From Thalassospiraceae bacterium LMO-JJ14 (lineage in GTDB: Bacteria > Pseudomonadota > Alphaproteobacteria > Rhodospirillales > Casp-alpha2): a stretch of 64,000 nt of DNA. The translations under genes and the position numbers were made by a program. Positions within the stretch are counted from its first letter, which is position 1; each line of letters begins with the position of its first letter. Shown here piece by piece: positions 4,401-18,254 of the stretch. Location: NCBI GenBank assembly GCA_021555105.2, contig CP134604.1, positions 3,138,501 through 3,202,500 on the forward strand, read 5' to 3'. The notes beneath the pieces were generated by a model that ran no database searches, had not been told where the DNA came from, and saw only the letters and a program-made list of their open reading frames with translations.

Positions 4401-5741
4401 ATGCAACTCATCATTGTCGGAATTCTGGACGGACAAATCGGCGCGGCCAGCCAAATAGCCATCAAGCGTGGCGCCAAGGTCGCGCAGGCAGACACGGTTG
4501 AAGACGGCCTTGATCTGTTGCGGCGCACCGGCGCCGATCTGGTGATGATCGACGTCGTGCTCGACGTCGCCGTGTTTATGAACGCACTCGAAGCCGAGCG
4601 CATCAACGTGCCGGTCGTCGCCTGCGGCGTATCGAACGACACACAAGCGGCCGTTCGTGCCGTCCGTGCCGGGGCCAAGGAATATGTTCCCCTGCCCCCG
4701 GACCCGGAACTGATTGCCGCCGTTCTTGAAGCGGTCACCGAGGATCAGCACGCGCTAATCTATAAGGACCCGAAGATGGCGGAAACCGTCAAGATGGCGT
4801 CACAGATCGCACCGTCTGAAGCGAGTGTATTGATCACCGGGCCGTCGGGTACCGGCAAGGAAGTCCTGGCGCACTATCTGCACTCGAAATCCAAGCGCAA
4901 GGATCGACGCTTCGTTGCCGTCAACTGCGCTGCAATCCCGGAAAATCTTCTGGAATCCGAGCTTTTCGGGCATGAACGAGGCGCTTTCACCGGCGCCGTG
5001 GCACGCCGCATCGGCAAGTTCGAGGAAGCTGACGGCGGCACCCTCCTGCTTGATGAAATCAGCGAAATGGACGTGCGCCTGCAATCCAAGCTGTTGCGTG
5101 TCCTACAGGAACGCGAACTGGACCGGATCGGTTCCAACAAGTCGATCCAGGTCAATGTCCGTATTATCGCCACGTCAAACCGCAATATGGAACAGGCGGT
5201 CAAGGACGGTCAGTTCCGCGAAGACCTGTATTTCCGTCTCAATGTCGTTAATCTGCGCCTGCCTTCGCTGGCAGAAAGGCCGGGGGACATAATGCCGCTG
5301 GCGAAACACTTCGCCGCCAAATACGCCGATGCAAACGACGTTCCCAACCGGCCGATTTCCGACGCCGCAGCCGACAAACTTGCCGGCTATCACTGGCCGG
5401 GCAACGTGCGAGAACTGGAAAACACCATGCACCGTGCCGTGCTGCTGGCCGTCGGCGATGAAATCAACGAAGCCGCCATTCACCTGACGTCCGGCGACAG
5501 CGGCGCCGGAGCGACTGCAGGCGGCGGTGACGATGCCGCACAGGCACTTGTCGGTCGTACCGTCGCCGAGGTCGAACGCGAACTGATCATTGACACGCTG
5601 CAGCATTGCCTCGGCAACCGGACCCACGCCGCGAACATTCTCGGCATTTCGATCCGTACGCTCCGGAACAAACTCAAGCAGTACGGCAGCGAAGGCTTCA
5701 ATATCCCATCACCCGGCGATGCCTCTCAGGCCGGCTTGTAA
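4401..5741 (+). CDS. flbD: Sigma-54-dependent flagellar transcriptional regulator FlbD
   Basis: 446 residues in three parts. Residues 1-115 form a degenerate receiver domain; Asp51 is at the usual phospho-acceptor place, but the N-terminal acidic pair of true receivers is missing. The AAA+ core (about 125-365) has Walker A GPSGTGKE at 147-154, the sigma-54 contact loop GAFTGA at 194-199 and Walker B GGTLLLDEI. A Fis-type helix-turn-helix (NRTHAANILGISIRTLRNKL) closes the protein. FlbD activates class III/IV flagellar genes with RpoN in Caulobacter, and the site inside the flagellar cluster agrees. The gene starts 28 bases after motA without a strong ribosome-binding site. Confidence 0.92.
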   Translation: MQLIIVGILDGQIGAASQIAIKRGAKVAQADTVEDGLDLLRRTGADLVMIDVVLDVAVFMNALEAERINVPVVACGVSNDTQAAVRAVRAGAKEYVPLPPDPELIAAVLEAVTEDQHALIYKDPKMAETVKMASQIAPSEASVLITGPSGTGKEVLAHYLHSKSKRKDRRFVAVNCAAIPENLLESELFGHERGAFTGAVARRIGKFEEADGGTLLLDEISEMDVRLQSKLLRVLQERELDRIGSNKSIQVNVRIIATSNRNMEQAVKDGQFREDLYFRLNVVNLRLPSLAERPGDIMPLAKHFAAKYADANDVPNRPISDAAADKLAGYHWPGNVRELENTMHRAVLLAVGDEINEAAIHLTSGDSGAGATAGGGDDAAQALVGRTVAEVERELIIDTLQHCLGNRTHAANILGISIRTLRNKLKQYGSEGFNIPSPGDASQAGL

Positions 5742-5805: not shown

Positions 5806-7929
5806 ATGGCCGAGGCCGGCGGCGGCGAAGTCACGACATTCAATACCGGGGATTTTGTCCGCGACCGGTTGATATCCGCCTCCAAACGAGGCGATATCAT
5901 GCTGGCGCTTGGCGTCGTCGCGATCCTTGTCGTGCTCATTCTGCCGATGCCGCGCTGGATGCTGGACTTTGCGCTGGCCTTTTCGATCACGTTTTCCGTA
6001 TTGATCCTGATGACCGCGCTGTTCGTCGAACGCCCGCTGGACTTCAACTCCTTCCCGACGATCCTGCTGCTCGCAACGATGATAAGGCTGTCGCTGAACC
6101 TCGCTTCGACACGACTCATCCTTTCCGACGGTCATGAGGGAACGCAAGCTGCCGGACAGGTGATCGAAGCCTTCGGGGGCTTCGTCATGGGCGGGAACTT
6201 CGTTATCGGCATTATCGTTTTCGCCATTCTCGTCATCGTCAACTTCATCGTCATTACCAAGGGTTCCGGCCGAATTGCCGAGGTTTCGGCACGGTTCTCA
6301 CTGGACGCCATGCCTGGCAAACAGATGGCCATCGATGCCGATCTGTCGTCGGGCCTGATCGATGAAGAATCCGCCAAGCTTCGCCGCAAGGAACTGGAAG
6401 AGGAAAGCTCGTTCTTCGGCGCCATGGACGGCGCGGCAAAGTTCGTTCGCGGCGACGCCATTGCCGGCTTGCTGATCACGTTTATCAACGTCATCGCCGG
6501 GATGATCATCGGCGTCGCGCAACAGGGCATGTCGTTTGGCGATGCCGCCGACACTTACACGCGCCTGACCGTCGGTGACGGCCTTGTCTCGCAGATTCCG
6601 GCGCTGATCGTTTCCACCGCAGCCGGTCTGGTTGTCACCAAGGCCGGCGTCGCGGGCACGGCCGAGGTTGCGATCTTCAAACAGATGGGCGGCCAGCCAA
6701 AGGCGCTCAGTCTGGTCTGTTTCCTGTTGCTGGCTCTGGCGATGATGCCAGGCATTCCGGCGTTGCCGTTCCTGACCCTGGCCCTGATCTGCGGCGGCGG
6801 CGCTTACTTCGTGAACTGGCGCAACAAAACCGCCGAAGAAGAAGCCGTCCGGCAGATCGAGGAAGAGAAAGTCGATCCCAAGTCCATCGCCGAAGAACCG
6901 ATTTCGGCTACCCTAAAGATCGATCACATCCGCCTTGAGCTTGGCTACGGCCTGCTGACCCTGATCAATGCCCCCAAGGACGGCCAGAAACTGACCGACC
7001 AGATCAAGGCGCTGCGCCGCCAACTCGCCGCAGAAGTCGGTTTCGTGATGCCGTCCGTGCGTATTCAGGACAACATGCAGTTGCCGGCCAATGTGTATGT
7101 CATCCGCATCAAGGAAATCGAGGCCGGGCGTGGTGAGCTTCGTCCCAACATGCTTATGGTGATGGACCCGCGCGGCGAGGAGATCTCGATCCCCGGCGAA
7201 AAAACCACCGAGCCGACGTTCGGCCTGCCGGCCATGTGGATCGAGGAAGCCAACCGCGAAGAAGCCCTGTTCAGAGGCTATACCGTGGTCGATCCGGCCA
7301 CCGTGGTGACCACCAACATCACCGAGCTGATCAAGGACAACATGTCGGAACTGCTGTCGTATGCTGAAACGCAGAAACTGCTGGACGAAATCGACAAAGA
7401 CCACCAGAGGCTTGTCGCCGACATCATCCCGGCGCAGATTTCACTCGGCGGCATTCAACGCGTGCTGCAAAACCTGCTGGCTGAGCGTATCTCGATCCGC
7501 GATCTGCCGACGATTCTCGAAGGGGTATACGAGGCCTGCGGCAACACCCGCAACGTGATGATGATCACCGAACACGTTCGCGCCCGCCTGGCACGGCAAA
7601 TTTCCAATATGAACACCAGCGAACAGGGTTTCATCCCGCTGGTGACGCTGTCACCTGGATGGGAGCAGACCTTCGCCGAGAGCCTTGTCGGACAGGGTGA
7701 AGACCGCCAGCTTTCGATGCCGCCGACCAAGTTGCAGGAATTTATTACCCAGCTCCGCAACACCTTCGAACGTCAGGCGATGATGGGCGAACAGCCGGTA
7801 TTACTGACCAGCCCGACGATCCGCCCATTCGTACGCTCCATCGTCGACCGCTTCCGCCCGATGACGGTGGTCATGTCACAGAACGAGATATACCCTAAGG
7901 CGAAGATCAAGACTGTCGGCCAAATATAA
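5806..7929 (+). CDS. flhA: Flagellar export apparatus membrane protein FlhA
   Basis: 707 residues, full length. The N-terminal half holds about eight membrane helices, with the highly conserved stretch FNSFPTILLLATMIRLSLNL and the FHIPEP-family loop (IDADLSSGLIDEESAKLRR). The C-terminal half (from about residue 365) is the cytosolic domain that forms the nonameric ring and receives substrate-chaperone complexes. FlhA is the main gate component of the flagellar type III secretion system. The ATG at 5806 follows AAGGGGA about 10 bases upstream. It lies 64 bases after flbD and 43 bases before flhF. Confidence 0.97.
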   Translation: MAEAGGGEVTTFNTGDFVRDRLISASKRGDIMLALGVVAILVVLILPMPRWMLDFALAFSITFSVLILMTALFVERPLDFNSFPTILLLATMIRLSLNLASTRLILSDGHEGTQAAGQVIEAFGGFVMGGNFVIGIIVFAILVIVNFIVITKGSGRIAEVSARFSLDAMPGKQMAIDADLSSGLIDEESAKLRRKELEEESSFFGAMDGAAKFVRGDAIAGLLITFINVIAGMIIGVAQQGMSFGDAADTYTRLTVGDGLVSQIPALIVSTAAGLVVTKAGVAGTAEVAIFKQMGGQPKALSLVCFLLLALAMMPGIPALPFLTLALICGGGAYFVNWRNKTAEEEAVRQIEEEKVDPKSIAEEPISATLKIDHIRLELGYGLLTLINAPKDGQKLTDQIKALRRQLAAEVGFVMPSVRIQDNMQLPANVYVIRIKEIEAGRGELRPNMLMVMDPRGEEISIPGEKTTEPTFGLPAMWIEEANREEALFRGYTVVDPATVVTTNITELIKDNMSELLSYAETQKLLDEIDKDHQRLVADIIPAQISLGGIQRVLQNLLAERISIRDLPTILEGVYEACGNTRNVMMITEHVRARLARQISNMNTSEQGFIPLVTLSPGWEQTFAESLVGQGEDRQLSMPPTKLQEFITQLRNTFERQAMMGEQPVLLTSPTIRPFVRSIVDRFRPMTVVMSQNEIYPKAKIKTVGQI

Positions 7930-7972: not shown

Positions 7973-8974
7973 ATGCGCCTCAGAAACTATACCGCTCCGA
8001 CGATGCCCGAAGCCATGGCGCTTGTCCGCGCCGACATGGGCGACGACGCCATCATCGTATCCACGGAAGTGGGTGTCGGCGATCAGGCTTGCTGCATCAC
8101 CGCCGCGATTGAGGACGAGCTTGAAATTCCCGGCGACAGCGCCGTCCGGATCACCGAAAGCACCGATAGCGTCCAAATGGATCCGGAACCCCGGCGCCAG
8201 TATCTGCGCCAGGTGCTGACCGCGCACGGGCTGCCAGCGCATCTTTGCGAACAGATGCTGCGCGATTGCGATCTGGTTGAAGACACCGATCCGGCTTTAG
8301 CCCTGGCCGCCGCCATCGATATGGGCGCACGTTTCCAGCCGATCGATTTCGATACCCAAGACCGCCCGTTGATGCTGGCCGGCATGCCCGGTGCTGGCAA
8401 GACGATCACCGCCGCCAAACTGGCTGCCCACGCGCGCTTCGCCGGTAAAAGCGTGTTTATCGCCACCGCAGACACCAAACGCGCCGGTGGGGTCGAACAG
8501 TTGCAGGCGTTCACGCGGATTCTCGAGCTGGACCTGACGACCGCACCTGATGCGGAAGCCCTGGCCGGACACATGGAAGCCATCCGCGCCGCCGACGCGC
8601 AGATCATCGACACTGCCGGTATCAATCCGTTCGACGAAGACGAGATGCAATCGTTGCGCGCCCTGGCTGCTGCCGTTGATGCCGAACTTGTTCTGGTGCT
8701 GGCTGCCGGTGCCGACGCCATGGAATCCGCCGATACCGCCCGGGCATTTGCCGCCATCGGCGCCACGCGTATGGTGATCAGCCGCCTCGACATGACACGC
8801 AGGCTCGGCGGCATTCTCGCCGCTGCGCTGGCCGGGCGTGTCGCCATCGCCAATGTCAGCATCAATCCGCAGGTCGCAGACGGCCTCAGCCGGATCAATC
8901 CCGTTTCACTGGCTCAACTGATCATCCCCGACGACGAGCCAAGAGAACCGATACAGAAAAAGGCCGCGCAATGA
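7973..8974 (+). CDS. flhF: Flagellar SRP-type GTPase FlhF
   Basis: 333 residues. The N-terminal B domain begins MRLRNYTAPTMPEAMALVR, the family's opening. The SRP-family GTPase domain follows, with the P-loop GMPGAGKT at 137-144, a DTKRAGGVEQL-type G2 motif and DTAG near residue 207. FlhF sets the place, and in some species the number, of polar flagella with its partner FlhG. The last four bases overlap the flhG start (ATGA at 8971-8974), so the two are translationally coupled. It is somewhat shorter than many FlhF because the basic linker between B and NG domains is short. Confidence 0.93.
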   Translation: MRLRNYTAPTMPEAMALVRADMGDDAIIVSTEVGVGDQACCITAAIEDELEIPGDSAVRITESTDSVQMDPEPRRQYLRQVLTAHGLPAHLCEQMLRDCDLVEDTDPALALAAAIDMGARFQPIDFDTQDRPLMLAGMPGAGKTITAAKLAAHARFAGKSVFIATADTKRAGGVEQLQAFTRILELDLTTAPDAEALAGHMEAIRAADAQIIDTAGINPFDEDEMQSLRALAAAVDAELVLVLAAGADAMESADTARAFAAIGATRMVISRLDMTRRLGGILAAALAGRVAIANVSINPQVADGLSRINPVSLAQLIIPDDEPREPIQKKAAQ

Positions 8975-9771
8975 GCGAAGAGACACCGCAAACACCCCAG
9001 TCCCCTGCCCGCACAAAAGGCAACATCATTGCCGTGGCTTCAGGTAAGGGCGGCGTCGGCAAGACATGGTTTTCGATCACGCTGGCCCACGCGCTGGCCA
9101 TGGTCGACCGCCGCGTTCTGCTGTTCGACGGCGATCTGGGGCTGGCCAACCTGGATATTCAATTGGGCCTGATGAACAAGAATGATCTTGGCGGCGTCCT
9201 CGCCGGGCGGATCAGTCTGGCGCAGGCTGTTGGTTACTGCGAAGACGGCGGCTTCGATGTGATTGCCGGACGGTCCGGGTCTGGTGCGCTCTCCAATCTG
9301 GCTGGAAACCGTCTGCAAACATTACTCGACGAGTTGGCGTTGCTGGCGGCGAATTACGATTACGTGATCCTCGATCTCGGTGCCGGGGTCGAGAGCACGG
9401 TGCGCCGCCTCGCCTATGCCGCCGATCAGATCATTGTCGTCGTGACCGACGAGCCGACGTCGCTGACGGACGGATACGCGTTTATCAAAATCGCGCACAA
9501 CGAACGACCCGAGACCGAAATCAAGGTCGTCACCAATATGGTCAATTCGACGACTGAAGGCGAGCGCACCTATAATACGCTGAACAAGGCCTGTCAGGGC
9601 TTTCTTAAATACTCCCCGGATCACCTCGGTATCATCCGCCGCGACGACAAGGTGCGGGGTGCCATTCGCGCCCAGCAATCGCTGTTGAACCGCTCTCCCG
9701 ACAGCGTCGCCGCCGAAGATATCAAGCAGATCGCGCGCATCATCCGGCGTGGACACGCCGGCGCAGCCTGA
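8971..9771 (+). CDS. flhG: MinD-like ATPase FlhG (FleN)
   Basis: 266 residues, ParA/MinD superfamily. The deviant Walker A GKGGVGKT is at residues 25-32, followed by LLFDGDLGLANLDIQLG, the family switch region, and DYVILDLGAGVES. FlhG antagonises FlhF and limits flagellar number. The coding region overlaps flhF by four bases. The C-terminal amphipathic segment expected of a membrane-targeting MinD-like protein is plausible (EDIKQIARIIRRG). The neighbourhood flhA-flhF-flhG is the standard order. Confidence 0.94.
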   Translation: MSEETPQTPQSPARTKGNIIAVASGKGGVGKTWFSITLAHALAMVDRRVLLFDGDLGLANLDIQLGLMNKNDLGGVLAGRISLAQAVGYCEDGGFDVIAGRSGSGALSNLAGNRLQTLLDELALLAANYDYVILDLGAGVESTVRRLAYAADQIIVVVTDEPTSLTDGYAFIKIAHNERPETEIKVVTNMVNSTTEGERTYNTLNKACQGFLKYSPDHLGIIRRDDKVRGAIRAQQSLLNRSPDSVAAEDIKQIARIIRRGHAGAA

Positions 9772-9778
9772 GCGGGCA

Positions 9779-11443
9779 ATGAGCGAAGTCACACCCCCGT
9801 CAGCCGCGCCACCGCCGCCCGCATTGGCGACTTTGCAACGCATCATCATTATAACGGCCCCCCCAGCACTGGCCGAACTTCCCGCTGGCACGAAGCTCGA
9901 TGTCCTAGTCGCGGATATTGTCGATGCCGCGCAAATCAGGCTTTCGACCCGGTTGGGCGACATCAGCCTCAAGGCACCGCAGCCGTTACCGGTCAAGACC
10001 GGCGATGCGCTGATCCTGCAACTTGTGAGCGGCGGCAATAATCCGCGTGTGCAACTGGCGACGACGGACGGGCGCACCCTCCCCTTGTTGGCAAGGGGAG
10101 CGGCCACTACGTCGCCTCAGGCCAGCTCTACGCCCCTGCAGGGACCGGGTACGGCGGCGGCACAAATTATCCCGGGCGCCTTCGTCACGGCGAACCTGCT
10201 CCGCCCCGTCAGCGTCAACGCGGCGCTTATCCTACAAGCGAAGCCTTCCCCCGGCGGTTCATTGCAAGCCACACAACAGGGCCCCGGCCTCAGCGGCCCG
10301 AAACCAGGGGTTCAAGCTGGACAGGCACAACCTGCACATGGGCAGACAACTCAGACTCTGGCCGGCACTACGGGCACGCCGTCCTCGGCTGCTTCACAGT
10401 CTAATCAGGGTCAAGTAAGTAAAGGTCCGGCGGCTCAAGGTCAGGCGGGTCAGGGCAATACCACCATCCCCGCCACTAGCAGGCTTGAGATAAAGATCAC
10501 TACCGTCAACATCGCCACTTCCCCACCGGGTCGTTTAACCCCAGGACCAGCACAAGGACAGATATCCCTTGCTCCGGGAGCAACCCTCACCGGCATCGTC
10601 AGCGGCCGCCAAGGGATTGGCCAGACGGTCGTGCAGACACACGCCGGGCCGATATCCCTGCCGACCCTGCAGGCATTTCCGCCGGGAAGTGAAATCCGCT
10701 TTGAAATCGTCTCGTTGAAACCACCCGTGGCGGGGACGGCCCAGCATGGCCCACTACACGGCGGCGTTGCCCCTATCCTGGACGGCTCTTGGGGAACTTT
10801 CAGCGAAGCGTTGGATATTCTCCGTGACGTGGCCCCAGGCGCACACCAGCACGTGATGCAAGCTGCCTTGCCCCGCGCCGACGCACAGATGGCGACGAAC
10901 GTTCTGTTCTTCCTGTCGGCCCTTCGCGGCGGCGATATTAAGAACTGGCTCGGCGACGGGCCGGTCCGTATTCTGGAAAAAATGCGCCCCGATCTCGCCG
11001 GACGCCTCAGAAGCGACATGACACAGATGACACGCAGCATCGATGACCCGCAGAGCGGTGAATGGCGCCTGCACGGCGTACCGTTCCTGTTTGGCGCCGA
11101 CATTGACCGGATTCAGTTCCTTGTCCGAGATCAGGAAAACGATGAAGACGGCGATGAGGAAAGCAAAGGCGGCACACGTTTCGTGGTCGATCTCGAGTTG
11201 AGCCGTCTCGGCCACCTGCAGATCGACGGGCTGGTCGGTGAAAAAAACAAGCGGCTCGATCTCGTCCTGCGCACGGATGAGCCGTTGCAGCCCCATGTCC
11301 GCGATGACATCCGAAGAATTTACAACGACGCCCTGGAACTGACCGGGCTCGAAGGATCCGTCGGATTTCAGGCCCAGCCCGGCAACTTCGTCAACATCCC
11401 TAAACGTATGCCCACCACTGGAAACAACGGTGTCATAGCATGA
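9779..11443 (+). CDS. Flagellar hook-length control protein FliK-like
   Basis: About 554 residues from the ATG at 9779, seven bases after flhG; an ATG at 9749 would add ten residues but overlap flhG. Residues about 115-240 are low complexity and rich in Gln, Gly, Pro, Ala and Thr, as in the secreted ruler part of FliK. The C-terminal ~90 residues (FVVDLELSRLGHLQIDGLV and onwards) resemble the FliK C-terminal substrate-switch domain, whose hallmark is an L-E-L-x-x-L-G-x-x-x-V/I segment. FliK is exported during hook growth and triggers the change to filament-type substrates. Function is inferred from the C-terminal pattern and context; overall similarity to known FliK is weak. Confidence 0.65.
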   Translation: MSEVTPPSAAPPPPALATLQRIIIITAPPALAELPAGTKLDVLVADIVDAAQIRLSTRLGDISLKAPQPLPVKTGDALILQLVSGGNNPRVQLATTDGRTLPLLARGAATTSPQASSTPLQGPGTAAAQIIPGAFVTANLLRPVSVNAALILQAKPSPGGSLQATQQGPGLSGPKPGVQAGQAQPAHGQTTQTLAGTTGTPSSAASQSNQGQVSKGPAAQGQAGQGNTTIPATSRLEIKITTVNIATSPPGRLTPGPAQGQISLAPGATLTGIVSGRQGIGQTVVQTHAGPISLPTLQAFPPGSEIRFEIVSLKPPVAGTAQHGPLHGGVAPILDGSWGTFSEALDILRDVAPGAHQHVMQAALPRADAQMATNVLFFLSALRGGDIKNWLGDGPVRILEKMRPDLAGRLRSDMTQMTRSIDDPQSGEWRLHGVPFLFGADIDRIQFLVRDQENDEDGDEESKGGTRFVVDLELSRLGHLQIDGLVGEKNKRLDLVLRTDEPLQPHVRDDIRRIYNDALELTGLEGSVGFQAQPGNFVNIPKRMPTTGNNGVIA

Positions 11444-11826
11444 ATTTGATGGACACTCCCGACAGCCTGCGTATACGGCGCGACCTACTGCTCACAACCC
11501 CGGCGCCGCAACCGCGCCACGATGCGGTGGTCATTCTGGAGAACAGCTTAAAGGATGCACACCTGCGACTTCGATACGTGCCGGACAGGGATGTCTTGCA
11601 ACCCGAAAGTCTGGGCCGTTATGTGGATGCGATCCGTGCCATGACCTTCGCCAGTTTCGAAGAAACGGCACAAACGATCCTTGAGGACATCAACGATCAG
11701 GTGATCCCGTGCTGGCTTGAAGTGACACTAAGCCGTGGCGGCACGGACATGCATCACGAAGTACGCATCGAAGATCGCCAACCGAACTGGAAAGACCGCG
11801 GCCTTTTGGATCGCCTCGCACCGTAG
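11440..11826 (+). CDS. QueF-like T-fold protein lacking the catalytic Cys, in the flagellar operon
   Basis: 128 residues, overlapping the FliK-like gene by four bases (ATGA), so coupled to it. The order of short motifs recalls the nitrile reductase QueF: RYVPD at 45-49, PESLGRYVDAIRAM (in place of ESKSLKLYLxSFRN), SFEETAQTILEDI (in place of FHE...NxIxxDL), P-x-WLEV at 90-95 and RGG at 99-101. The QueF Cys-Pro nucleophile region is replaced (TTPAPQPRHDAV), and His-Glu becomes Glu-Glu, so preQ0 reductase activity is unlikely. A non-catalytic role connected with the flagellum is an inference from position only. The resemblance was recognised by eye and needs a profile search. Confidence 0.6.
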   Translation: MNLMDTPDSLRIRRDLLLTTPAPQPRHDAVVILENSLKDAHLRLRYVPDRDVLQPESLGRYVDAIRAMTFASFEETAQTILEDINDQVIPCWLEVTLSRGGTDMHHEVRIEDRQPNWKDRGLLDRLAP

Positions 11827-11845: not shown

Positions 11846-12277
11846 TCAGGTGTGTCCGCGCTTTTTCCGATTGAACCCGGTGATGCCGATCTCGTCGAGT
11901 TCGAGTTGTTCTTCGCGGTTGGCTTCGGCCTCCATACGCGCGACACGACGCTCCTCGGAGATTTCGAATTTCTTGAATTCAAGGAATGCCAGCCTGAGCT
12001 GTTCGCGAGCCGCCGAAACCTGTTGCTCCTGTTCGGCGATGCGGCGCTGGTAATCCTCGCGCCTGAGGATCGCCTGCGCGGCATAAGCACCGTAAAATAT
12101 CCCGCCTTCGGTCGGCGCTGACGCAGCATGCGCCTGTTCGCGCTTCAGTTCCGCTTCAAGGTTCTCCAGAAGCCCGATAAGGTTATCGAGCTGGCGAAGC
12201 TGTTCCGCGAGGTAGCGGCGCTTCTGATCCACTTCCCAGTCATTCAGCCGCACCAGTGCCTTGAAGTCACGTGCCAT
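11846..12277 (-). CDS. fliJ: Flagellar export chaperone FliJ
   Basis: 143 residues, almost wholly charged alpha-helix of coiled-coil type with frequent Arg, Glu, Gln and Leu, as expected for FliJ. It opens with FKALVRLNDWEVDQKRRYLAE, the usual FliJ beginning. FliJ sits in the centre of the FliI hexamer and promotes its interaction with FlhA. It lies 22 bases downstream of fliI on the same strand, forming a two-gene fliI-fliJ unit that converges on the large flagellar operon (19 bases from the QueF-like gene's stop). Confidence 0.88.
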   Translation of the reverse strand: MARDFKALVRLNDWEVDQKRRYLAEQLRQLDNLIGLLENLEAELKREQAHAASAPTEGGIFYGAYAAQAILRREDYQRRIAEQEQQVSAAREQLRLAFLEFKKFEISEERRVARMEAEANREEQLELDEIGITGFNRKKRGHT

Positions 12278-12299: not shown

Positions 12300-13691
12300 T
12301 TATCCACCGGCTGCCTGCTCCGTCGCTGGCGCATCGCCCTGCATGCCTAGGATTTCGTAGAGCTGATTATAGCCTTCCTCGAGCGAGGCATTCTCGCCGA
12401 TCGACTGTGCAAGATAAGCTTCAAGCTGGGGATAATAACTGATCGCCTCGTCGACGGCGGCATCGGACCCTTTGCGGTAGGCGCCCAGGCGGATCAGTTC
12501 AGCCATGTCCTCGTATGTCGAAAGCAGTTTGCGCGCCCGCACGATGGCGGCGTTCTGGGCATCCGTGTTGCAGGCCGGCATGGTCCGGGAAATGCTTCGC
12601 AAAACGTTGATCGCCGGGTAACGGTTGCGCTCGGCGATTTCCCGGTCGAGCACGACGTGGCCGTCAAGGATACCACGCACCGCATCGGCGACCGGCTCGT
12701 TGTGATCGTCCCCTTCGACCAGAACCGTAAACAGGGCGGTGATATCGCCCTGCGATCCGTATCCAGGCCCGGCGCGTTCCAACAGCTTCGGCAGTTCCGA
12801 GAACACCGACGGTGTATAGCCCTTGGAAGCCGGCGGCTCACCCGCCGACAGACTGATTTCCCGTTGCGCCATGGCAAAACGCGTCACACTGTCCATCATG
12901 CACAGCACATTCTTGCCCTGATCGCGGAAATATTCGGCAACGGCCAGCGTCACGTAGGCGGCCTGGCGGCGCACCAGCGGCGGCTCGTCCGAGGTCGCGA
13001 GGATAACAACCGTACGCTTCATCCCTTCCTCGCCCAAATAGTCCTCGATGAATTCCTTAGCTTCACGGCCGCGTTCGCCGATCAATCCGACGACACTGAT
13101 TTCCGCATCCGTATTTCTGGCCATCATCGACAATAACGTCGACTTACCGACGCCGGAGCCGGCAAAGATACCCATGCGCTGGCCGCGGCATGTGGTCAGG
13201 AACGTGTTCATGATACGCACCCCGAGATCAACCTTGCCGGCGACGCGGCGGCGCTTGTGCGCGGGCGGGGGCGAGGCGTGGATCTGATAACTCTTGGTGC
13301 CGGATTCGATGGATCCGCCCTCATCCAGCGGATTGCCGAACGCATCAATCACCCGTCCAAGCCATGACTGATCCGGATAAATAGAGGGTTCGGTCGATGC
13401 CAGCTCAGCCTGGCAGCCGAGACCAATACCGTCGAGCGAACCGAACGGCATCACCAACGCACGGCCACCACGAAAGCCGATGACCTCACAAATGACGTGA
13501 CGGCCCTTGCGTCCGTCGACGCGCACATGATCACCGATCGACAACGTGCCCTGCAAACCGCCTATTTCGACCATCAAACCAACGATATCGGCAACCCGGC
13601 CAAAGACCTGATGGTCCGGAAGCCGCGCCACTTCGTTGGCAATATTGTTGGCAAACACCCGCAAAGGCTTTTCCCCGTCCCGTTCCCGCAC
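12300..13691 (-). CDS. fliI: Flagellum-specific ATP synthase FliI
   Basis: 463 residues, the family's usual length. P-loop GSGVGKST at 178-185; other F1-beta-like motifs include GLIGERGREAKEF, Walker B VLCMMDSVTRFAMAQRE and YTPSVFSELPKLLERAG. FliI hydrolyses ATP to energise export through FlhA/FlhB, with FliH and FliJ. The start is a GTG at 13691; no in-frame ATG occurs before residue 40, which lies inside the N-terminal barrel, so GTG is chosen. The promoter must lie at 13692-13795, where a CtrA-like half-site pair is seen. Confidence 0.95.
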   Translation of the reverse strand: MRERDGEKPLRVFANNIANEVARLPDHQVFGRVADIVGLMVEIGGLQGTLSIGDHVRVDGRKGRHVICEVIGFRGGRALVMPFGSLDGIGLGCQAELASTEPSIYPDQSWLGRVIDAFGNPLDEGGSIESGTKSYQIHASPPPAHKRRRVAGKVDLGVRIMNTFLTTCRGQRMGIFAGSGVGKSTLLSMMARNTDAEISVVGLIGERGREAKEFIEDYLGEEGMKRTVVILATSDEPPLVRRQAAYVTLAVAEYFRDQGKNVLCMMDSVTRFAMAQREISLSAGEPPASKGYTPSVFSELPKLLERAGPGYGSQGDITALFTVLVEGDDHNEPVADAVRGILDGHVVLDREIAERNRYPAINVLRSISRTMPACNTDAQNAAIVRARKLLSTYEDMAELIRLGAYRKGSDAAVDEAISYYPQLEAYLAQSIGENASLEEGYNQLYEILGMQGDAPATEQAAGG

Positions 13692-16450: not shown

Positions 16451-17158
16451 ATGCGCGTACTTTTAGTGGAAGACGATCCGACGACCCAGGCAACGGTCAA
16501 GCTGATGCTGGAAACGGCAGGCATGGTTGTCGATGCGACGGATCTCGGCGAAGACGGTCTGGAGATCGGCAAGCTTTACGAATACGACATCATCATTCTC
16601 GATCTGATGCTCCCGGACATGGATGGGCTGGAAGTGCTCAGACGGCTTCGCGATTCACGCGTCCAGACGCCAGTATTGATCCTGTCTGGGCTTACGGAAT
16701 CGGAAATGAAGGTCAAGGGGCTCGGCATCGGTGCCGACGACTATCTGACCAAGCCTTTCGACAAATCAGAATTGATGGCCCGCGTGCAGGCGATCGTGCG
16801 CCGTTCCGCTGGGCACGCCCATTCGATCATCCATACCGGGCAGATGTCGGTAAATCTCGACACCCACATGGTCGAAGTCGATGGCCAGCCGGTGCATCTG
16901 ACAGGCAAGGAATACGGCATTCTTGAGCTATTGAGCCTGCGCAAGGGAACGACCCTGACCAAGGAAATGTTCCTTAACCACCTGTACGGCGGCATGGACG
17001 AGCCTGAACTGAAGATCATCGACGTCTTCATCTGCAAACTCAGAAAGAAACTGGCCGATGCCACTGGTGGGGAACACTACATCGAAACGGTGTGGGGCCG
17101 GGGATACGTGCTGCGTGATCCGGAAACCATGCCGGCCGCACAAACCGCGACGGCATAA
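16451..17158 (+). CDS. ctrA: Cell-cycle and motility response regulator CtrA
   Basis: 235 residues. The OmpR-type receiver domain starts [13 protein letters not shown] and has the phospho-acceptor Asp in [13 protein letters not shown]. The winged-helix domain contains [20 protein letters not shown] and [20 protein letters not shown], which are nearly invariant in CtrA across alphaproteobacteria. In Caulobacter it controls cell cycle, flagella and chemotaxis; in Rhodospirillales it is usually non-essential and controls motility, which suits the adjacent flagellar genes. A good intrinsic terminator follows. It receives phosphate from CckA through ChpT, whose gene lies just downstream on the other strand. 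Confidence 0.96.
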
Positions 17159-17190
17159 CAACGCAATTCCCAAACGATATTCGTTAACGG

Positions 17191-17214
17191 GGGCCGGTTC
17201 GACCGGCCCTTTTC
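17191..17214 (+). terminator. Intrinsic terminator of ctrA
   Basis: Stem GGGCCGGT / ACCGGCCC (17191-17198 with 17202-17209) around a tight TCG loop, followed by TTTTCTTT. It lies 33 bases after the ctrA stop and just before the end of the convergent gene at 17221. Confidence 0.85.
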
Positions 17215-17220
17215 TTTACC

Positions 17221-17589
17221 CTAATCGACCAGCCCCAGTTGCAGGAACTTCGCGCGGATGCTCTCGCTGTCGAACGGTTTCAAGATGTAGTCGCTGGCCC
17301 CGGCAGCCAGTGCTTCGTTGATGTGATCCGTATCGTCTTCCGTGGTGCTGAAGATAATAACGGGAGTTTCACCACCCGGCTTACCGCGTAGCGCACGGAG
17401 CAGCTCAATACCGGTCATCCCCGGCAAACGCCAATCCAGGAGGATCGCGTCTGGTATGGTTTTGTCACAGGATTCCAGTGCTTCGTGACCATCCGAGGCT
17501 TCTTCGGTATCGAGGCCGATTTCCTGTATGATCTTCCTCGCCACCATGCGGATGACCTTGGAATCGTCGACAATAAGACAACGCTTCAT
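17221..17589 (-). CDS. CheY-like single-domain response regulator
   Basis: 122 residues from the ATG at 17589; a TTG 30 bases upstream overlapping chpT is less likely. It is a receiver domain only: KRCLIVDDSKVIRM at the start, the phospho-acceptor Asp in DAILLDWRLPGMTG, and the Lys of DYILKPFD. There is no output domain. It is read with chpT just upstream, and the pair converges on ctrA. A role as an extra partner of the CckA-ChpT-CtrA phosphorelay or of chemotaxis is likely. It does not look like CpdR, whose C terminus differs. Confidence 0.85.
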   Translation of the reverse strand: MKRCLIVDDSKVIRMVARKIIQEIGLDTEEASDGHEALESCDKTIPDAILLDWRLPGMTGIELLRALRGKPGGETPVIIFSTTEDDTDHINEALAAGASDYILKPFDSESIRAKFLQLGLVD

Positions 17590-17615
17590 GTTTTTGTCCG
17601 GTCCCGTTTGATGGC

Positions 17616-18254
17616 TCAATCCGCGATGGCGAGAGCGGCGAAACGGACCTCGTCATGGTCTGCCGCGACTTCAAGCTCGCATCCAGCTTCGAGAACAAGA
17701 AGCTGGGTCAGATAACTGTGGATGGAACGACTGTCGAGCGACGTCATCGACTTGCCCGGAGTCAGCCCCTGCGCCAGATCCTCACGCAATCCGGCATCAC
17801 TACCGGTGGCGGATACGGCGAGCCCGATGCCGCCTTCGACCTCGGCGATCTGGACACTGACGGTCCCGCCCCTCGGCAGGCATTCGGACCCGATAAGGAT
17901 CAGATTCAGCAAAAGCTTGCCCATCACGGGATCGATTTCACGGACACCATCGCCGTAGTCGGGCCATTCGAGCCGGGAATTGGAACCCTCAAGGAAGTCT
18001 TGCGCCAAGGCACGCAGCGCCGTGACCTCTGCCCCGCCCTTGCCGGCGCCGCCCGCACCGAAGGCAACGCGGAAGAAACCCAGGCGCCGGGTCAGTTCCT
18101 GGCCGCTTTTCGTCGCCAGTTCCATGGCGCTGTCATCCAGCCCCCCCATCTCGGCGAGAATTTCAAGACCGGCATTGACCGCGCCGGCCGCCCCTACGAG
18201 ATCGTGACACAATCTGGAGCATACGAGCTGGCTGAGCCTCAATTGTTCACTCAT
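17616..18254 (-). CDS. chpT: Histidine phosphotransferase ChpT
   Basis: 212 residues. It begins LRLSQLVCSRLCHDLVGAAG; SRLCHDLVG with the phospho-accepting His is the ChpT hallmark. The rest is a degenerate HATPase-like domain lacking the N, G1 and G2 ATP-binding boxes, as in ChpT dimers. ChpT relays phosphate from the hybrid kinase CckA to CtrA and CpdR. The position opposite ctrA and upstream of a CheY-like gene supports the assignment. No cckA is in the window. Confidence 0.88.
   Translation of the reverse strand: MSEQLRLSQLVCSRLCHDLVGAAGAVNAGLEILAEMGGLDDSAMELATKSGQELTRRLGFFRVAFGAGGAGKGGAEVTALRALAQDFLEGSNSRLEWPDYGDGVREIDPVMGKLLLNLILIGSECLPRGGTVSVQIAEVEGGIGLAVSATGSDAGLREDLAQGLTPGKSMTSLDSRSIHSYLTQLLVLEAGCELEVAADHDEVRFAALAIAD

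Follow-up and report, generated by a model that had tools for sequence, protein, structure and literature searches.

The window analysed here, a stretch of 64,000 nucleotides from contig CP134604.1 of Thalassospiraceae bacterium LMO-JJ14, contains a flagellar gene block on its forward strand that includes the genes for an flbD-type sigma-54 activator (4401-5741), flhA (5806-7929), flhF for an SRP-type GTPase (7973-8974) and flhG of the MinD/ParA type (8971-9771). A FliK-like open reading frame (9749-11443, +; an ATG start at 9779 is also possible) comes next and is followed by an ORF that begins with ATG, occupies exactly positions 11440-11826 (+) and encodes a putative T-fold protein of 128 amino acids, derived from QueF and devoid of the QueF catalytic residues. 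We coined the name TQF for the family of this ORF. The TQF start codon and the stop codon of the FliK-like ORF overlap in the sequence ATGA (11440-11443, +), pointing at translational coupling. Genes fliJ (11846-12277) and fliI (12300-13691) reside on the opposite strand, with fliJ convergent to TQF. Just past fliJ-fliI, genes for CtrA, a DivK-like receiver and a ChpT-like histidine phosphotransferase are present at 16451-18254, and ctrA holds its position beyond fliJ-fliI in most relatives.

TQF in the window is a real gene under purifying selection. Where computable, dN/dS against close relatives lies at about 0.03-0.29, values that are rough because synonymous sites are close to saturation. 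Together with 38 homologues in a class-wide sample, they rule out a pseudogene or a non-coding ORF.

The Pfam model for QueF (PF14489) matches residues 40-113 of the window protein with an E value of 3e-8 and 34.2 bits (gathering score 27.3), and it also matches 32 of the 38 TQF members. On the NCBIfam equivalog TIGR03139 (preQ1 synthase) the protein reaches 27.8 bits and stays below the cut-off of 86.9. TQF is therefore related to QueF yet fails the test for the enzyme. A comparison with QueF and GTP cyclohydrolase profiles had been proposed in an earlier sequence-only reading of this DNA; in profile-profile comparisons TQF matched QueF, represented by 14 sequences, with 97.7% and an E value of 2.4e-12 and GTP cyclohydrolase I (FolE) with 77% and an E value of 2e-5, so that the QueF/T-fold ancestry claimed in that reading holds. 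When the family profile was searched against solved structures, significant matches were obtained solely with QueF (4FGC, 4F8B, 5UDG) and with the QueF-Like archaeosine synthase (5JYX). The Pfam match, the profile-profile comparison and this search rule out a chance likeness of motifs. Phenylethanolamine N-methyltransferase, the top match when a single TQF sequence was searched against solved structures, was judged spurious. In a phylogenetic tree, the 38 TQF sequences group together across a branch with support of 99/90, apart from QueF and FolE, in a topology that is unrooted and features long branches.

Structure prediction against the T-fold, likewise proposed earlier, gave a mixed outcome. 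An AlphaFold model built from four sequences shows the order beta-beta-alpha-alpha-beta-beta that is typical of a T-fold subunit and also found in QueF, but it reaches a pLDDT of only 55 and matches known folds weakly. The best Foldseek matches for this low-confidence model, none of them significant, include QueF-Like and GTP cyclohydrolase I, while VIA-align ranked methyltransferase fragments over T-folds, a result that is uninformative at such model quality. From its sequence relationships we infer that TQF adopts the T-fold.

Homology to the unimodular, NADPH-dependent preQ0 nitrile reductase QueF (PF14489, TIGR03139; B. subtilis structures 4F8B and 4FGC) extends over most of the domain. 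A joint alignment shows that both families share an N-terminal NP-x-x-DY, YVPD, the final Tyr of the NADPH motif, the base-anchoring Glu, P-x-W and a C-terminal RQPxW, the latter in some non-alphaproteobacterial QueFs. In the window protein, RYVPD comprises residues 45-49 (11572-11586, +) and is kept in TQF, QueF (Y-V/I-P) and FolE (Y-L-P-D). The sequence ESLGRY (residues 56-61, 11605-11622, +) aligns with the QueF NADPH motif, defined as E(S/L)K(S/A)hK(L/Y)(Y/F/W) (PMC5372742), of which TQF keeps nothing but the final Tyr (33 of 38 members), the positions of Glu78, Lys80 and Lys83 being variable. The FEE motif is formed by residues 73-75. Phe73 (11656-11658, +) takes the position of QueF His96, and Glu74 (11659-11661, +), the first glutamate of FEE, which corrects the earlier reading of this motif, is the counterpart of the T-fold base-anchoring Glu (QueF Glu97, FolE Glu152) and is present in 37 of the 38 members. 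Two independent profile comparisons and a MAFFT alignment agree in placing Glu74 opposite QueF Glu97. Further downstream, PCWLEV (residues 90-95, 11707-11724, +) contains the conserved P/A-x-W start of a strand in the TQF alignment, and EDRQPNW (residues 111-117, 11770-11790, +), the most conserved signature of TQF, resembles the V-x-x-Y-R-Q-P-x-W of some non-alphaproteobacterial QueFs. The order of motifs that had been taken as fitting QueF is thus present for RYVPD, ESLGRY, FEE and PCWLEV, but the RGG assigned to the same series (residues 99-101) is peculiar to the window protein and a chance feature: the TQF alignment shows that relatives do not conserve it.

QueF is defined by Cys55, Asp62, Glu97 and the NADPH motif with Glu78 (PMC5372742). 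In the B. subtilis enzyme, the exchange Glu97Gln raises the KM for preQ0 about 280-fold and affects kcat to a smaller extent, and Glu97 therefore holds the substrate (PMC5372742). Unlike QueF, TQF lacks Cys55, Asp62, Glu78, Lys80, Lys83, His96 and RGG. The cysteine of C-P-x-T-G-x-P-D is found in none of the 38 TQF sequences as opposed to all 35 QueFs compared, His at the His96 position is likewise absent from all 38, which substantiates the loss of the Cys-Pro nucleophile and the active His noticed earlier, and the column of the general acid/base Asp62 is variable or gapped. FolE shares the anchor Glu in addition to Y-L-P-D, but its zinc-binding and catalytic ESHCEHH segment and its phosphate-contact segment S-K-L-A-R are missing from TQF, and the alignment column of the FolE Cys holds a gap or another residue in every TQF.

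The genome of strain LMO-JJ14 encodes an intact QueF at C1:938124 (154 aa, 109.8 bits, with CPVTG and FHE). This excludes TQF as the QueF of the organism and identifies it as a paralogue rather than the reductase. The FolE protein of the same genome scores weakly on the same QueF model. Adjacent to canonical queF, in the region C1:936624-939863 of the own genome (L001), we noted ORFs resembling Tgt, QueD and QueE, suggestive of a full queuosine pathway independent of TQF. QueF resides in a queuosine context and TQF in a flagellar one within one and the same genome. Judged by sequence, it is almost certain that TQF derives from QueF and is not the reductase.

The flagellar cluster membership proposed earlier proved to be a conserved trait. 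We inspected 42 neighbourhoods (20 plus 20 loci from relatives and two Azospirillum plasmids), 41 of which were assigned by BLAST against the window genes and one (L091) by reading its CheR and FliK-like ORFs. In essentially all of them, TQF is the last gene of a block flhA-(flhF)-flhG-(FliK-like). It is located on the same strand following flhG, the FliK-like gene or, in some small-genome members, a cheR that itself follows the FliK-like gene, and it lies downstream of flhA in every contig long enough to show this; L090 and L100 are in part cut off by contig ends. Usually, fliJ-fliI is convergent with TQF. Azospirillum brasilense Sp7 exhibits the same gene order, which BLAST revealed in a record lacking annotation; its TQF gene lies in NZ_CP012915 at about 1285968-1286330. 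Azospirillum species carry TQF on large plasmids, where it is annotated as "hypothetical protein" or not at all. Although all QueF catalytic residues are missing, TQF passes the PF14489 gathering score, and automatic annotation may thus return QueF or preQ1 synthase.

When the window protein was searched against 61 genomes from its genus, family and order, 40 of them yielded relatives, a count that includes the disrupted copies in G023 and G034. A profile search of 385 alphaproteobacterial genomes yielded 31 strong and seven more diverged TQF members; the latter stem from small genomes and also reside in flagellar or chemotaxis neighbourhoods. No TQF was found beyond Alphaproteobacteria in a sample of the phylum. 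Matches of 35-47 bits outside the class, five of which were read directly while others were taken for the tree, are genuine QueFs with Cys-Pro. Within the class sample, FlhA occurs in 36 of the 38 genomes with TQF vs. 185 of the 347 others (Fisher 1.3e-7, relatedness ignored). In the two exceptions (G118 and G181) fliI, fliJ and the FliK-like gene are still found beside TQF, and FlhA probably escaped detection due to assembly gaps. A member of the window's own genus with a 98% complete genome (G001) lacks both FlhA and TQF.

On the other hand, TQF is disrupted by several stops in G023 (L165) and G034 (L166), in which the FliK-like and other flagellar genes are intact, and it is missing from G014, G033 and G039 despite the presence of the neighbouring flagellar cluster. 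The majority of flagellated alphaproteobacteria in the class sample do not contain TQF either. The protein is therefore neither indispensable nor a core part. The two pseudogenes represent natural knockouts that lend themselves to a comparison of flagellation. In another relative (G006; locus L007, locus position ~1843), one in-frame TAG interrupts TQF towards its 3' end, which could be an assembly error or a sign of early decay.

The upstream neighbour deserves separate consideration. Its family is unannotated, has a Pro/Gln-rich N-terminus, adjoins flhG and is present in 130 of the 385 alphaproteobacterial genomes. Pfam assigned no family to the FliK-like ORF of the window or its relatives and gave no match to Flg_hook (PF02120), unlike the canonical FliK with Flg_hook that is encoded elsewhere in the genome, about 6.4 kb upstream of the window. 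A sequence profile of the FliK-like C-terminus did not match true FliK significantly. When a low-confidence model of the C-terminal domain (pLDDT 57) was compared with structures, the switch domain of the needle-length protein PscP ranked first (5CUK; Z 6.2, 88 residues, 3.0 A) and that of the hook-length protein FliK second (FliK-C, 2RRL; Z 4.9). The designation as FliK-like, already used in the sequence-only reading, is therefore fair, and the protein is plausibly a second FliK/PscP-type protein judging from this model. As canonical FliK is present as well, the genome appears to hold two proteins of the FliK type. The likeness to FliK and PscP concerns the neighbour exclusively and does not extend to TQF.

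This neighbour is central to the main rival explanation, as ranked in our analysis, according to which TQF would serve specifically as partner or chaperone to the FliK-like ruler/switch protein, co-produced via ATGA and binding or guarding the C-terminal domain of that protein until export. The FliK-like gene precedes TQF in the majority of neighbourhoods; a 4-base overlap with the upstream gene, be it the FliK-like gene or flhG, recurs in 11 of 40 inspected relatives and in nine of these it specifically involves the FliK-like gene; and the C-terminal domain of the FliK-like protein, as modelled, resembles PscP and FliK switch domains. The coupling proposed earlier is thus frequent, but it is not obligatory. 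Seven of the 38 TQF genomes lack a FliK-like gene detectable by profile search, and flhG directly precedes TQF in G289, G417 and G167. One of the seven is G411, yet visual reading of its locus L091 reveals a FliK-like ORF adjacent to TQF, and the true number may therefore be six or fewer. Conversely, about 99 genomes feature the FliK-like gene and no TQF, so that TQF is not strictly dependent on it. Furthermore, a gene for a CheR methyltransferase separates the two in small-genome alphaproteobacteria (L087, L088 and L091). To our knowledge, no T-fold protein acts as an export chaperone. We consider it unlikely that TQF is a partner of this kind.

Less likely still is the idea that TQF has remained an enzyme and catalyses a new reaction on a purine, pterin or nucleotide held by Glu74, for example to generate a small signalling molecule or to modify some component of the flagellum. 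Near-invariant positions comprise the anchor Glu as well as the polar Tyr61, Asp83 and the pair Gln114-Pro115, and the T-fold superfamily is chemically diverse. A precedent is provided by QueF-Like (5JYX, 5K0P), another QueF-derived T-fold protein with changed function and the best-ranked T-fold entry for the weak TQF model, its profile match being weak, too. QueF-Like has altered its reaction with the pocket retained (PMC5485725). However, it keeps the cysteine and forms a thioimide, whereas TQF has no Cys at that position. The 38 members conserve neither Cys nor His nor any metal-binding cluster to provide a nucleophile or to coordinate a metal, their catalytic loop is shorter than that of QueF and the NADPH motif is lost. 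Finally, it is most improbable that TQF is a passenger locked into the operon with a function unrelated to flagella: TQF is dispensable in several flagellated relatives and FlhA went undetected in two genomes with TQF, but flagellar genes adjoin it in both of these, its position is kept across many families of the class including the Azospirillum plasmids, and it is missing where flagella are missing, even within the window's own genus.

QueF chemistry is gone, the Glu and the domain are retained and the gene keeps company with genes for flagellar assembly, observations that a pseudoenzyme explains most economically. We regard it as probable that TQF is a QueF paralogue that has moved past the QueF reaction and now acts as a dedicated accessory of the flagellar cluster. 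The sequence-only reading had seen in it an undescribed T-fold protein turned flagellar factor. In the open literature searched, no description of TQF or of any flagellar QueF/T-fold protein was found, and TQF constitutes an undescribed family, QueF-derived and with a new genomic role, on a fold that is not new. The flagellar role itself is deduced from gene context and co-occurrence, which make it very likely, and the gene has disappeared from some flagellated relatives. Found in the same place in the flagellar clusters of many alphaproteobacteria, TQF is probably a flagellar helper that has so far escaped description.

As to the mode of action, TQF would fold, and probably oligomerize, as a T-fold ring in which Glu74 may hold a purine- or pterin-like ligand. 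Going by residue conservation, we consider ligand binding through Glu74 an almost evenly balanced matter, with the balance slightly on the negative side; that the residue is structural and preserves nothing but the shape of the pocket is conceivable as a less likely alternative. The protein could then serve as a non-catalytic regulator or scaffold of flagellar assembly or placement, together with the products of flhA, flhF, flhG and the FliK-like gene. More speculatively, the pseudoenzyme ring might be a metabolite sensor, derived from an enzyme of tRNA modification, that binds a purine, 7-deazaguanine or pterin via the T-fold Glu and signals to the FlhA/FlhF/FlhG/FliK-like export or placement machinery, an idea that we put forward as less likely than not.

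A protein like this is annotated as no more than a hypothetical protein, or is liable to be taken for QueF on account of the Pfam threshold. The retained base-anchoring Glu leads to the specific prediction that a protein encoded in a flagellar operon binds a small molecule. If the preferred reading of TQF as a flagellar pseudoenzyme is true, a T-fold enzyme would have turned into a flagellar component that is conserved over a large part of the alphaproteobacteria.
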